A stretch of 52,402 bases of DNA from Sulfurimonas sp. (GTDB taxonomy: Bacteria > Campylobacterota > Campylobacteria > Campylobacterales > Sulfurimonadaceae): assembly GCF_014859695.1 (NCBI RefSeq), contig NZ_JACUTS010000006.1, forward strand, positions 1 through 52,402, in the 5' to 3' direction. The number at the start of each line of letters is the position of its first letter. The first letter of the stretch is position 1. The notes under the pieces are model-generated. The model saw only the letters and a program-made list of their open reading frames with translations. It ran no database searches and had not been told where the DNA came from. Shown one piece after another: positions 33,558-40,134 of the stretch. A program made the position numbers and the translations under genes.

Positions 33558-35249
33558 TCACTCCCCTTTATTCAAATCAAAATGTCTCTCTAAGTCGGCT
33601 CTGTATAAAAGTATCGGCACAACCATTAGTGAAGCAATAACCGCCGCAACTGTTCCAAATATAAGAGCAACACCAAGACCTCCAAATACCGCATCTCCAG
33701 CTAAAAGAGTTGATGCAAGTATTATCGCCGCAGCTGTAAGAAAAATCGGTTTTGCACGTGTTGCGGTCGCATAGGCGATTGCTTGGGCCTTTTGCATGCC
33801 ACTCTCTTTCATTAGTGAAGCCGTAAAGTCAATCAGAAGCAGAGAGTTTCTTGAACTTATCCCGATAAGCGCTATAAAACCTATAAGGGATGTAGCGGTT
33901 AAGAAGAAAGTGTCTGCAGTAAATAGATCCATTATCCAGTGACCGACAATGACCCCTATGATTGAGAGGAATGAACCTAGGAGGATTATGCCGCTAAGCG
34001 TATAACTTTTATAGTAGATAACCATAAGCAAAAAGATAAGAACCAAAGCGGCAATAAATGCAGCACCGAGCTCTACAAAGGTGTCTAGTGTTACCTCCAT
34101 CTCTCCGTCCCAAATCAACTTATAGACGTTTTGAGAGCTTTTGTCAGTCAGTTTAAGGTTGAAGAGACCTGTTTTTTCGATCTCATACCTGTCGCTAAAT
34201 GTGTCCAAAATAGTATCTCTTGCCTCCATAAGCGGATAAACCTGTGAAACCATGTTAGTTTCAGCCATGACGTTTGTCATCCGGTGCAGATTTTTGCTCA
34301 TAATCATTGGGTTTGATTTTTTAGGCACAATGGTTACTAACTCCGTAATGGGCGTCATCATCCCCATCTGATTCATAAGTTTCAAAGAGGATAGTTTTGC
34401 TTTGATGGCATTAACATCTTTTGATGAGAATTTTTTAAACTCAAGACTAAGCGATAAATAGATAGGAATCTGATCGTTTGCAACATCTGAGTTTTTTACA
34501 GCAATCTGCATCCCCTCAAATGCAAGATAGAGTATGTCGTTGAGCTGTTTTACATTGATGCCGGAGAGTGATACTTTTGTGCTGTCCACTTCTACCTCAA
34601 AAGTGTCGTAAATCTCATCTTGCATAACTTCAATATCTACAAGACCTTTAGTTTTTTTAAACACCTCTGAGACTCTGTTTGAGAGCTCTCTGATTCCATC
34701 TGCATCATCTCCGTATATCTCTGCTACAATAGCCGCCAAAACAGGAGGTCCTGCGGGTGGTTCAACAAAAGTGATGGTTGTTTTGTCATAAATAGTAGAG
34801 CAGCTTTTTTGGATGTCGGGTCTCATTCTTTGAACCATAAAGTATGAGGGTTCTTCTCTGTGATGTTTTTCGGAGAGATTTACTACGATTTCTGCCACAT
34901 TTTCCGAGTTTTTAAAGTGTGAACCTTTGATAAGACCGGCAAAATCAAGAGGTGCGCCCATGCCCAAAAATATCTCAAAATCTTCAACCTCTTTCTCCTG
35001 TTTTATAAAACCTGCCACGCACTCAGTTACTCTTCTTGTTTGTTCAATCGAGCTTCCCTCAGGCAGAGTTGTGTAGATAGTAAATGTATCATTGTTTTTT
35101 CCCGGAAGCATCTTTGCTAAAACCATTTTGCTAGGGGCTATCATTAAGACCGAGAGAATAAAAGCTATAAGAGTTGCAAAAAGGATCAAGTTCCTTTGAA
35201 GGGGGCTCTGTATTCCGTTAAATACCGCATCTTGAAATTTTTTAAACAT
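33558..35249 (-). CDS. RND efflux permease, C-terminal half
   Basis: A 563-aa protein equivalent to TM7-TM12 plus the second periplasmic loop of an AcrB/CusA-type permease. It starts MFKKFQDAVF, then a membrane segment (LILFATLIAFILSVLMI), a large periplasmic region (PEGSSIEQTRRV... ), and TM8-12 including SLIGFIALIGISSRNSLLLIDF, the usual TM10-11 pattern. It begins 8 bp before the end of the N-terminal-half gene in another frame, with GAGGAG 7 bases upstream of ATG, so it can be translated as a separate subunit. The two halves together (about 1090 aa) equal one normal permease. Confidence 0.85.
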   Translation of the reverse strand: MFKKFQDAVFNGIQSPLQRNLILFATLIAFILSVLMIAPSKMVLAKMLPGKNNDTFTIYTTLPEGSSIEQTRRVTECVAGFIKQEKEVEDFEIFLGMGAPLDFAGLIKGSHFKNSENVAEIVVNLSEKHHREEPSYFMVQRMRPDIQKSCSTIYDKTTITFVEPPAGPPVLAAIVAEIYGDDADGIRELSNRVSEVFKKTKGLVDIEVMQDEIYDTFEVEVDSTKVSLSGINVKQLNDILYLAFEGMQIAVKNSDVANDQIPIYLSLSLEFKKFSSKDVNAIKAKLSSLKLMNQMGMMTPITELVTIVPKKSNPMIMSKNLHRMTNVMAETNMVSQVYPLMEARDTILDTFSDRYEIEKTGLFNLKLTDKSSQNVYKLIWDGEMEVTLDTFVELGAAFIAALVLIFLLMVIYYKSYTLSGIILLGSFLSIIGVIVGHWIMDLFTADTFFLTATSLIGFIALIGISSRNSLLLIDFTASLMKESGMQKAQAIAYATATRAKPIFLTAAAIILASTLLAGDAVFGGLGVALIFGTVAAVIASLMVVPILLYRADLERHFDLNKGE

Positions 35250-36831
35250 GCTTCTTCTCCTCAGAGTGAAAATCCGGTTTTTTCAGCATTCTAGTCGCTA
35301 AATAGGGTGTAAAGATATATGCAACAAAGAGAGATGCAATAAGCGCCACGGGAACATTCGCAGGAATAGGTTTCATAAACTGTCCCATCATCTGCCCAAC
35401 AAATGCCATCGGTACCATAGTCATAATAATAGCCAGTGTTGCTATATTTGTCGGCGGTCCGATCTCATCGGTAGCTTTGATCATAATATCATCAATGCTC
35501 TCATGTTGGGCCTCTTTTGAGTGAAGGTGTCTGTGAATATTCTCTATTACAATAATGGCCGCATCGACTAAGAGTCCAAGCGAGAGTAAAAACGCAAAGA
35601 GCGTTATCCTGTTTATGGTCTGTCCGCTTAAGTAGGCAACAAAAAGCGTTATCGCCAGAATTGCAGGAACCGTAAAGGTTACAATGAGAGACTCCCTCCA
35701 TCCAAGCACCAAGATAAGCAAGATTGCAATGATTACAATGGATAAAAGAAGGTGGTATACAAGTTCGTTAACCGCTTCGTTTGCTCTTTGTCCGTCGTTT
35801 CTAGTAATTACATACCCGATACCGTTCTTGCGAAAAAACTCTTTTGAGTTCTCAAGCTCGCTTTTTACCGCATCTGCAATTATTACCGCATTTGTGCCCT
35901 GAAGTTTTGAGACACTGAGTGTTACCTGGTTTAGAAGAGGAGAGAATTCTCCGTTTTCACCCTTTTTGCTAATGGTCGCAGATTTAAAGTTTTGTATATT
36001 ATGGGAGAGTGTTACTTTTGCAATTTGTCTTAGATATACGGGCGAGTTCATGTAGGTTGCAATGATTATATTGCCTATATCTTCTGCGCTCTCTATTGCA
36101 TTTTTGACACCAAGCATAATTATCTCATTCTCTTTTGTTCTGTTTTTTACTGCCGGAACACTGTATGCAAGAGATTGGACTCCTTGAACAATCTGTCCCA
36201 TAGAGATGTTATAGCCTGAGAGTTTATTGAGGTCCACTTCAATATTGAACTGCTGTTTGTCTCCGCCTTTTACCTCCGTAACCGCTACATTTGCCAGTCC
36301 GTTGATACGGTGTTGAATCTCTTTGACTCTGTCGTAGAGCTCAGTTTTGCTCATCTGTTTGTCTTTTGAGTAAAAAGCAACCGATACGATTGGTATGTCG
36401 ACATCTATGTCAAGCGGCTTGATTATAGGATTCATAGCGCCCCGGGGAAACATATCTGCATTTTGCATTATTTTGTCATAGACTTTTAGGTTTGAATCCT
36501 CTTTTTTCTCCCCGATATAAAATGCCGCGTTTACAATACCTACGTTATCCATCGCCATTGAGGAGATATTCTCAACCCCTTTGACCTCTTTTAGTTTTCT
36601 CTCTAATGGTTTTACTATGACTTTTTGTATCTCCGCCGCACTAGCTCCGGGAAGTGCCACAATGACCGTTGAACCGCTTACAACCATCTGCGGATTCTCT
36701 TCGCGAGGCATGATGTTAAGCGATAAATAGCCGATGGCGAGCAAAAAAATACCAAGAACAATAGTGAGAGGATTTCTTAAAAACCCCGCGGCAAGTCGTC
36801 CTGCAATATCTGTCGGTTTATAGCTGTTCAT
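35242..36831 (-). CDS. RND efflux permease, N-terminal half
   Basis: A 529-aa protein equivalent to TM1-TM6 of an RND permease: TM1 (NPLTIVLGIFLLAIGYLSL), periplasmic porter loops, then five membrane segments. TM4 reads GLLVDAAIIVIENIHRH: the VDAAI form is that of heavy-metal CusA-like pumps rather than the VDDAI of AcrB. After TM6 (TPYLATRMLKKPD) the frame ends within 13 residues, in the cytoplasmic linker. A run of six A lies just there; a one-base change would join the halves, but the downstream half has its own ribosome binding site. It probably acts with the adaptor and TolC-like protein upstream. Confidence 0.85.
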   Translation of the reverse strand: MNSYKPTDIAGRLAAGFLRNPLTIVLGIFLLAIGYLSLNIMPREENPQMVVSGSTVIVALPGASAAEIQKVIVKPLERKLKEVKGVENISSMAMDNVGIVNAAFYIGEKKEDSNLKVYDKIMQNADMFPRGAMNPIIKPLDIDVDIPIVSVAFYSKDKQMSKTELYDRVKEIQHRINGLANVAVTEVKGGDKQQFNIEVDLNKLSGYNISMGQIVQGVQSLAYSVPAVKNRTKENEIIMLGVKNAIESAEDIGNIIIATYMNSPVYLRQIAKVTLSHNIQNFKSATISKKGENGEFSPLLNQVTLSVSKLQGTNAVIIADAVKSELENSKEFFRKNGIGYVITRNDGQRANEAVNELVYHLLLSIVIIAILLILVLGWRESLIVTFTVPAILAITLFVAYLSGQTINRITLFAFLLSLGLLVDAAIIVIENIHRHLHSKEAQHESIDDIMIKATDEIGPPTNIATLAIIMTMVPMAFVGQMMGQFMKPIPANVPVALIASLFVAYIFTPYLATRMLKKPDFHSEEKKHV

Positions 36832-36840
36832 ACTTTTCCC

Positions 36841-37629
36841 CTACTCTATAACTATAGTAGCATACATGCCGGGATAGATGGATTTGTAAACATTTTTAAA
36901 AGAGATCTTGATTTTAAATGAGTGTGTCATAGGGTTTGAGCTCGGTATGATTGCACTTATGGTACCAATGGTTTTTATGTTTCGTGATGGAATATTTATT
37001 ACAACTTTTTTCCCCTCTTGTATGAGACTTAAGTTGTCTTCGCTAATCTCTGCAGATATTTTAAGGTTTGAGAGATCAGAGAGCTCAAGCGCAGGCATCC
37101 CCGGCATTGCCATCTCCCCAACATTGACATTTTTGCTAACTATTACCCCGTCGTTTGGTGCGGTAATATTTAGGTAGCGGTACTGGTTTTTTACCTCTTC
37201 ACGTTGCGCTTGCGCTTGAGCCACCTGCTTTTTTGAGATAATTATCATATGTGCAAGGTTATTTTCTGCAAGTGCGAGATTTTCGACCTCAAATTTTGAG
37301 ACCATATCTTTCTCTAGTAGTCTCCTATGTCTCTCAAGGTTTAGCTTAACGTTCGTGTATTGATTTTGATACATCTGAAGACTGAGCTGTGCTTGTGAGA
37401 TTGCAAGTTCTACTTGAATAAGAGCCGAATCTATCTCTTTTGAATCAATAGTATAGAGAAGGTCTCCCTTTTTTACTTCATCGCCCTCTGAGACTTTAAC
37501 GTCTGTAACAAAACCCATAAAACGGCTTGTAATCATCTTTTTGTTATCACTAATTACGGCGCCTGAGAGTGTAATTCCCTCAGCCATAAGTGAGGCTGCT
37601 ATGCCTAAAAGTAGTAGTAGTTTTTTCAT
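36841..37629 (-). CDS. RND periplasmic adaptor (membrane fusion protein)
   Basis: A 262-aa HlyD/AcrA-type adaptor. A signal peptide (MKKLLLLLGIAASLMA) is followed by the first lipoyl half (GFVTDVKVSEGDEVKKGDLLYTID), an alpha-hairpin (about 70-150), the second lipoyl half (ITAPNDGVIVSKNVNVGEMA) and a beta-barrel domain. It is about 100 residues shorter than most adaptors because the membrane-proximal domain is missing at the C terminus. No lipobox. It lies between the TolC-like gene (4-bp overlap) and the permease halves, so it should bridge pump and outer-membrane channel. Confidence 0.88.
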   Translation of the reverse strand: MKKLLLLLGIAASLMAEGITLSGAVISDNKKMITSRFMGFVTDVKVSEGDEVKKGDLLYTIDSKEIDSALIQVELAISQAQLSLQMYQNQYTNVKLNLERHRRLLEKDMVSKFEVENLALAENNLAHMIIISKKQVAQAQAQREEVKNQYRYLNITAPNDGVIVSKNVNVGEMAMPGMPALELSDLSNLKISAEISEDNLSLIQEGKKVVINIPSRNIKTIGTISAIIPSSNPMTHSFKIKISFKNVYKSIYPGMYATIVIE

Positions 37630-38990
37630 CTATTCTCTCCATTTGCTAATTTTTCAAGTGCGAAAACTCTCTCGTTTCTTTGGTTGATGGTCTGTTGCAG
37701 TTGAAGCGTTTTTTGTATCTCTTCAGACTGCTTGATTATGACATCGCTCATGGAAGCGAGCTTTTCTCTATATCTTGCTTCGTAGTTTTTATATATCTCT
37801 TGAGCCAGTAAAAGCTCTTTTTTAAGAGAATCAATATCTTTTTCAAGACTCTTTATCTCGGTTATTATCTTTTGTGCTGCAAGTTCAATGCCGCTGTTTG
37901 CAAGCTCTAGCTGGTTTTGCATCTTAATATACTCAAGTCTTGACTTCTCGACATTCGCGCTGTCTGAGCCGCCGCTAAAGATGTTCCATGAGAGCCTTGC
38001 ACCTAAGGTATATGCTTTGTGATCATTCGCCTCACCCAAGAAGGTGTCGTCTGCGGTGGAAACTTCGGCAAATGCTCCAAGTGTAGGGTAGTATGAAGCT
38101 TCAGATACCTTTACCATACTCTTTTTGATATCTAGCGCCTTTTTTGCCATCTCTATGTCTAAGTTTTTCTCCACTATCTCCTGCGCAGAAGCATCTACGC
38201 TTTTTGTCTCGATGGAGGGGGTTTGGATAGAGGTTACTTTTTGATTAAGCAAAAAACTGATGTAGTGGTAGAGTAACTCTTTGTTTGACTCCATTTGAGA
38301 GATAAGCCTTTCAACATTGCCTTTTTTTGACTTTACCTCTAAAAGGTCGGTTCTTTTTGCATACCCCTCTTTTATCATCTCTTTTGTCATATTTTCAAGC
38401 GTTTGAATGTTGCCGAGGATGACTTCAAGGTTGGATATCGACTCCTCCAAAAGAGCCATATCGTAAAAACTCTTTTTGGTCTCGTAAATCTTTTGGCTTA
38501 AGAGTTTTGACTTCTCAAGTTTTTTTATTTTTATGACCGACTCAGTTATCTCTTCGTAGTTTGAGATCATAAAACCGGTAAATAGAGGCACTTCATACTT
38601 TAGTTTGCTTTGGAAGTAGTTTCTTGAGCCGGGGTAGTTTAAGTCATTTGGTGGAGTTGTGTATTGGTCTGGCTGTCCCATATTGTTCATAAACTCATTT
38701 GCCCCAAAATCCCCAAAAGTAGCTTCTCGCGAGCTTAGTTTAAACCCAAATACATTTCCTGCATCATCACTTCTTGCAAAATCTTGAATAAAATCAAGTT
38801 TACCGTAGTGGTTTGCTGAAGCAGCTTTGGCATCTTGCAATGCACTCTCTATATCTATCTGCGCACTTTTTATCTCTAAATTTTGAGACTTTAATATCTC
38901 TAGCGCACTCTCAAGATTTAGTGATTGCGAGGCATTTAAAAGGGAACCGCCGATTGTTGCTATGAACATAAAAGTAAGTATTTTTTTCAT
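37626..38990 (-). CDS. TolC-family outer-membrane efflux protein
   Basis: A 454-aa outer-membrane channel component. A signal peptide (1-20, ending LLNAS) is followed by two tandem repeats of long amphipathic helices (LNLESALEILKSQNLEIKSA; VEKNLDIEMAKKALDIKK), the typical duplicated TolC fold, with SWNIFSGGSDSANVEKS as the second-repeat family motif. It is the first gene of the minus-strand efflux operon TolC-like, adaptor, permease N half, permease C half. AAGGATATGT precedes the ATG. The substrate is unknown. Confidence 0.88.
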   Translation of the reverse strand: MKKILTFMFIATIGGSLLNASQSLNLESALEILKSQNLEIKSAQIDIESALQDAKAASANHYGKLDFIQDFARSDDAGNVFGFKLSSREATFGDFGANEFMNNMGQPDQYTTPPNDLNYPGSRNYFQSKLKYEVPLFTGFMISNYEEITESVIKIKKLEKSKLLSQKIYETKKSFYDMALLEESISNLEVILGNIQTLENMTKEMIKEGYAKRTDLLEVKSKKGNVERLISQMESNKELLYHYISFLLNQKVTSIQTPSIETKSVDASAQEIVEKNLDIEMAKKALDIKKSMVKVSEASYYPTLGAFAEVSTADDTFLGEANDHKAYTLGARLSWNIFSGGSDSANVEKSRLEYIKMQNQLELANSGIELAAQKIITEIKSLEKDIDSLKKELLLAQEIYKNYEARYREKLASMSDVIIKQSEEIQKTLQLQQTINQRNERVFALEKLANGENR

Positions 38991-39085: not shown

Positions 39086-40044
39086 TTACAAAAGTTTAAG
39101 CGCCAAGTGAAGATAAGATTGATTAAATCGATTGACCATGCTTGGATCTCTCATCATCATCTTAAGTGCATCGAATGATGAGTAGTGCGCTCTGTATGGT
39201 CTGTTGTTTGTAAGCGCGTCAAATACGTCGCAGATTGATAAAATAGAGGCAAAGTCGCTTATGTCATCTTTTGTAAGTCTATTTGGATATCCCGTGCCAT
39301 CATAGCATTCATGATGGTGCATAACGGCATCTATTATATAGGGGTCATGGATTTTGTTCTGCTTTAGTATTTCGACGCTATATTGGCTATGTTTTTGTAC
39401 CAGCGCGGTCTCATTAGGTGACAAACTTCTTTTTTTATATATAATATCTTTGTCTATTCTTTTAATCCCAATGTCATGCAAAAGAGCGGCAGAGCCTAGT
39501 TTTAAGAGCTGCTCATCGCTAAATTTTAGTCTATAACCCAGAGTCAAAGCATAGATGGCGACGTGCAGAGAGTGATTTTCAAGCATGTAGTCACTTAGCA
39601 TATGCGGCATAGTATTTTTTATAAAGGCATCATCATATTTTAAGAGATAAATAATAGCATCAATTATTAGCTCAACGCACCCAATATTTAGTCTATTTTC
39701 TTTATTTATCATAAAAATTTCAAAAAGTTGGTTGTTTACTTCATAAAGTAGTTGAAGCCTTTTTTTATGGTCATCTTTATTATATTTTATATAGTGCTTC
39801 AAGGTCTCACATGAGAGTATCTGTTTATCTTCATCTTTTTTGTTTATATAGAGGGCATCTTGCTTTTTTAGTTTGTCGTATAAAGCTTGTGTGAGAGCCG
39901 TACCTGCTTCAATTATGACAATATAGTCTCTCTCTCTTTTTTTATAAAAATATCAAAAAGTGTAACAGCCCCCACAGCAAGTGCATCAATATCTAGCAGA
40001 GTGTATGATTTTGCGTAATTTAGTTTGCTTTTTATAATTTTCAT
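39086..40044 (-). pseudogene. HD-GYP domain protein, frameshifted (c-di-GMP phosphodiesterase type)
   Basis: From ATG at 40044 the frame reads MKIIKSKLNYAKSYTLLDID and stays open for 44 codons, then stops just after a simple-sequence tract. The downstream frame continues at once (DYIVIIEAGTALTQALYDKL) through a helical region to an intact HD-GYP domain: LLHDIGIKR, HHHECYDGTGYP and SICDVFDALTNNRPYR. Removing two bases (one GA) gives a continuous protein of about 318 aa. The internal TTG at 39802 that opens the catalytic part lies in mid-sequence and has no ribosome binding site, so I read this as one broken or phase-variable gene. HD-GYP enzymes hydrolyse cyclic di-GMP. Confidence 0.7.
39927..39943 (+). 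repeat. Simple-sequence tract (TC)5 T7 inside the HD-GYP gene
   Basis: Five TC units (39927-39936) run straight into seven T (39937-39943); on the coding strand this is seven A then (GA)5. The two reading frames of the HD-GYP gene overlap exactly across this tract, so the frame break lies here. Loss of one GA unit restores the frame. Confidence 0.75.
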
Positions 40045-40134
40045 TTTCGAATTATAGCAAAGATTTTTTGGAGTTATACTTTATGGCTAAAGCAATATTT
40101 TGATAGAATACATTTTTTAGATAAAGGCGAAGTT

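Follow-up and report, generated by a model that had tools for sequence, protein, structure and literature searches.

Whether a gene for a putative c-di-GMP phosphodiesterase that is read in two frames at a short repeat represents a phase-variable switch, a freshly broken gene or a fault of the assembly is the question raised by a locus of the window, the whole 52,402-nucleotide stretch of Sulfurimonas sp. DNA analysed here (contig NZ_JACUTS010000006.1 of assembly GCF_014859695.1). When a draft genome shows a gene broken at a short tract, this constitutes weak evidence for a switch before relatives and genome-wide tract counts have been checked. The features of the locus are the following:

39913 to 40044, minus strand: N-terminal fragment, 43 amino acids from an ATG plus a stop (44 codons), comprising the beginning of the N-terminal domain
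39086 to 39952, minus strand: C-terminal open frame of 288 codons, with the remaining N-terminal region and the HD-GYP domain
39927 to 39943, minus strand: A7(GA)5 tract, where the two frames separate
40051 to 40056, minus strand: TATAAT hexamer, its end 6 nt upstream of the ATG

The split of the HD-GYP gene is real in the assembly. The N-terminal frame runs on the minus strand from the ATG at 40044 to a stop at 39913, and overlaps the C-terminal frame across A7(GA)5. The preliminary description of this DNA, which had proposed a 44-codon N-terminal frame with a proper ATG and an overlap of both frames at the tract, is thus borne out in coordinates and arithmetic, as is its expectation of a single protein of about 318 residues if the parts were in frame: the frame difference agrees with it, and the intact orthologue in the genome G005 is an ORF of 318 amino acids, to whose start the fragment is 86% identical over 42 residues. 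It was also a fair remark that the downstream frame lacks a credible start, the earliest one (with ATG, GTG and TTG considered) being the TTG at 39802, which would yield 238 amino acids and shows no clear ribosome site when judged by eye.

Of the 288 codons of the C-terminal frame, the last 268 were used as query. The frame carries an HD_5 match of 95.6 bits (cut-off 27.2, E 3.7e-27), and among NCBIfam models TIGR00277 (HDIG) is barely above its cut-off, the remaining matches falling below theirs. HD-GYP proteins are marked by the motifs HDxGK, HHExxDGxGYP and D..DAL..RP, of which the latter two are present in the window protein, and its HD, HH-E and GYP residues are preserved in an alignment of 24 sequences. 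The column of the HDxGK lysine is occupied by I in the window and by K in one of the 24 aligned sequences, window included, and the column after it is K in all 24. Over residues 139-144, numbered in the 268-codon query, the sequence is accordingly HDxGxK in 23 of the 24, with no lysine at the usual HDxGK place. The domain had been described as intact, which holds for the HD, HH-E and GYP residues but not for the HDxGK lysine, displaced by one residue. Judged from these motifs, the window protein is a divergent HD-GYP-like protein and a putative c-di-GMP phosphodiesterase, the displaced lysine being a trait of its subfamily.

The nearest solved structures are PDB 4mcw, 4mdz and 4me4, entitled 'Metal dependent phosphohydrolase' (phmmer E 1.2e-21), which we take to be PmGH of Persephonella marina. 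They have the HD, H, HH-E, GYP and DVFDALT..RPY motifs in common with the window protein; unlike them, the present family has the lysine of HDxGK one position off in 23 of the 24 members aligned and an N-terminal region without a Pfam match, and the gene here lies in two frames. Pfam gave no match for the 43-residue fragment, and on the intact G005 protein nothing outside the HD region except one chance-level match. A structure prediction from three sequences, with L032 and not the window protein as first row, reached a mean pLDDT of 62.7 and stayed below 50 for residues 1-54, so that it is hardly informative on the N-terminal domain; strands at 31-36 and 39-44 are weakly predicted in it on either side of the position equivalent to the break.

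A search of 135 genomes of the genus, the own one included, retrieved 37 with a match at E<=1e-50, that is, 36 others. The orthologue is a single full-length open frame in 31 of these 36, among them G015 and G069, where the start codon could not be placed. In G063, G121 and G154 it is cut off at contig ends, and in G132 it lacks the N-terminal part and is one open frame of 259 amino acids. The nearest orthologue, that of G005, is 83% identical and lies in a syntenic stretch aligning across most of the window. None of the relatives viewed has a two-frame arrangement like the present one. Hence, as is characteristic of a frameshifted gene, intact orthologues exist in relatives, the nearest one at the same locus. 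In G149 (L048), a second species, the orthologue is frame-broken farther downstream, at a site without a comparable tract; the break is independent, and the stop there overlaps an ATG at which translation might restart. This different break suggests that loss of the HD-GYP gene may recur.

At the site of the break and upstream of the gene, 26 rows were compared, window included; all others are of other species, the window being the one representative of its own. These counts omit L008, L052 and L057, for which a start was not located, the frame-broken L048, and L032 and L033 (identical to L047 and L049), and neither they nor the conservation counts given below include G001, G002, G120, G132, G139, G121 and G154. 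The GA run comprises 5 units here and at most 2 in all 25 other rows, whereas the same A7G run occurs, with the frame intact, in 6 of them. The GA repeat, and not the A7 run, is the feature private to this genome. A7(GA)5 as a whole occurs once in the window and in none of 100 dinucleotide-preserving shuffles. In 18 of the 26 rows, window included, a TATAAT lies 6-8 nt upstream of the start codon and is probably the promoter of a near-leaderless or leaderless mRNA.

Sequence constraint bears on the age of the break. Relative to G005, dN/dS is 0.044 over 268 codons, with a dS of 2.2 that reflects saturated synonymous sites, a value inside the range of 0.013-0.216 displayed by 44 other window genes in the same comparison. 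In the alignment of 24 sequences, which joins the window to 23 genomes out of the 36 others, 33 columns are invariant in those 23 and the window deviates at none of them; of 70 columns conserved to at least 90% it deviates at 2, against 3 for G005. With codons and motifs thus preserved, the break is young, reversible or an artefact, and not that of an old pseudogene. The suggestion that the gene is freshly broken concurs with this preservation, with the intact orthologues of relatives and with the shared synteny. When amino-acid changes are polarised by three outgroups that agree, 8 fall on the branch of the window and 3 on that of G005, small numbers that give a hint of relaxed constraint, which would make the break older.

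We therefore favour, with a probability of about 0.62, a recent, one-off and private frameshift, probably inactivating, in a conserved divergent HD-GYP orthologue, and not an evolved switch. Such a recent private frameshift is an ordinary event. Replication slippage in the short AG-rich tract would have changed its length and put the gene out of frame in this genome, a slip there being the simplest origin. Translation from the ATG would then end after 43 residues, and the HD-GYP part would be made little or not at all, either via the weak TTG at 39802 or, alternatively, through infrequent slips of the ribosome on A AAA AAA. The cell would consequently lack the enzyme; its genome has three HD_5 matches, this one among them, and 32 GGDEF matches (31 above cut-off). 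If the lesion is real, the lineage would have lost one of three HD_5-type proteins and retained about 30 GGDEF domains, with a possible rise in c-di-GMP and a possible shift towards attachment. The lesion could in principle revert.

The main rival, unlikely as we judge it but ahead of all others, is a consensus error, with the population in frame and the tract length wrong in the draft assembly. The draft consists of 186 contigs with 2.38% contamination, a single genome of the species is behind the call, and the gene is otherwise conserved, all of which would suit an error. On the contrary, the break is the sole gene-sized one found in the window upon comparison with the G005 ORFs (ATG start, at least 80 amino acids): 67 of them had a match and 9 were flagged, at 55% identity or above, because of a stop or a change of frame. 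Besides the present gene, these were 8 ORFs of 91-142 amino acids that overlap other ORFs, mostly antisense. The window is thus not generally error-ridden, though a single slip may have occurred.

Evolved phase variation, in which slipped-strand changes of the tract would toggle the enzyme and diversify c-di-GMP levels, appears clearly less probable again. In its favour, the break lies exactly within a repeat, as in the phase-variable simple-sequence-repeat genes of Campylobacter described in the accessible part of PMC6321876; the remainder of the gene is well kept; and the genome holds 8 poly-G/C tracts of 8-10 bases, and the one at C124:5127 separates two frames. A phase-variable c-di-GMP phosphodiesterase is moreover on record, pdcB of Clostridioides difficile, and switching here would likewise vary such an enzyme, but according to PMC9286219 pdcB varies by inversion of a promoter-bearing DNA segment and not by slippage in a coding sequence. 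Unlike the Campylobacter repeats, the present tract is absent from relatives and falls under every cut-off given in the accessible part of PMC6321876 (7 G/C, 10 A/T or 6 dinucleotide units), with its 5 dinucleotide units and its A7; no variant of its length has come to light. Nor is (GA)5 itself out of the ordinary in this genome, where it gives 25 overlapping matches at 24 sites, against 38 for the reversed pattern. The other 23 sites all fall within single open frames, none shorter than 129 codons, and three of them (L099, L102 and L104) are no more than 30 codons away from an end of their frame. The proposal of a phase-variable gene thus goes unsupported, the GA run being private, below the cut-offs and of a kind found elsewhere inside one frame. 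A free-living sulphur bacterium just beginning to phase-vary a c-di-GMP phosphodiesterase through a newly formed A7(GA)5, beside poly-G switch genes, is slightly more doubtful still; were phase variation true, it would mean mixed attached and swimming cells. Going by titles and opening lines of abstracts, none of the papers listed on Sulfurimonas, on phase variation and on HD-GYP proteins or phosphodiesterases describes the split HD-GYP gene.

Under the Campylobacter cut-offs, as far as the accessible part of PMC6321876 gives them, the poly-G/C tracts are better switch candidates than A7(GA)5. At C124:5127-5134 (L122), a G8 tract stands between two frames, measuring 198 and 81 codons from one stop to the next, which read like one protein and make a better phase-variable candidate than the HD-GYP gene. 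At C66:10225-10234 (L117), a G10 tract immediately 5' of the first ATG precedes a 455-codon frame that looks by eye like an outer-membrane protein, and is a possible expression switch. Pfam gave no match for three frames next to poly-G tracts, including both C124 frames and the C66 one.

That full-length protein is made by programmed -1 frameshifting on the A7 run, or by slippage of the transcript there, is highly improbable, and this reading was set aside. The downstream frame is indeed the -1 frame and A AAA AAA is correctly phased; nevertheless, the run is shared by the intact orthologues of 6 of the 25 other rows, and so simply spells Ile-Lys-Lys codons, the two-frame arrangement is found in no relative viewed, and the downstream RNA fold is unremarkable, no better than shuffles (z -0.35). 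A functional short protein made on its own from the C-terminal part, for which the naturally N-terminally short form of G132 offers a parallel, is the least credible reading of all, as its first start is a TTG without a clear ribosome site and the probable promoter sits at the upstream ATG.

Returning to the frameshifted gene in its surroundings, it precedes, in the same orientation, an efflux operon composed of:

37626 to 38990, minus strand: downstream gene for an outer-membrane efflux protein (Pfam PF02321)
36841 to 37629, minus strand: downstream gene for an HlyD-type membrane-fusion protein (Pfam PF16576)
35242 to 36831, minus strand: first half of an RND permease (ACR_tran profile 10-493 of 1021)
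33558 to 35249, minus strand: second half of the RND permease (ACR_tran profile 528-1016 of 1021)

The HD-GYP gene is found 2.1-2.4 kb upstream of the RND first half, on the same strand, in this genome and in 12 of the 36 others; the distance is 9.9 kb in G065 and 4.8 kb in G066, and in the remaining 22 of the 36 the two genes lie far from each other or on separate contigs, are cut, or have no match. A functional link between the HD-GYP signalling gene and efflux is possible. The RND permease itself (33558-36831, minus strand) consists of two half-size genes of 529 and 563 amino acids with an 8-base overlap. No description of a half-gene RND permease was found among the papers listed on split RND transporters or Sulfurimonas RND efflux. 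Its first half has matches in 115 of the 135 genus genomes at E<=1e-150, those listed all lying in frames of 412-583 codons and none being of full RND length; six of the weaker matches contain one stop each. The second half was compared between the window and G005 only. An RND permease encoded in half-genes across the genus is perhaps more interesting than the HD-GYP split.
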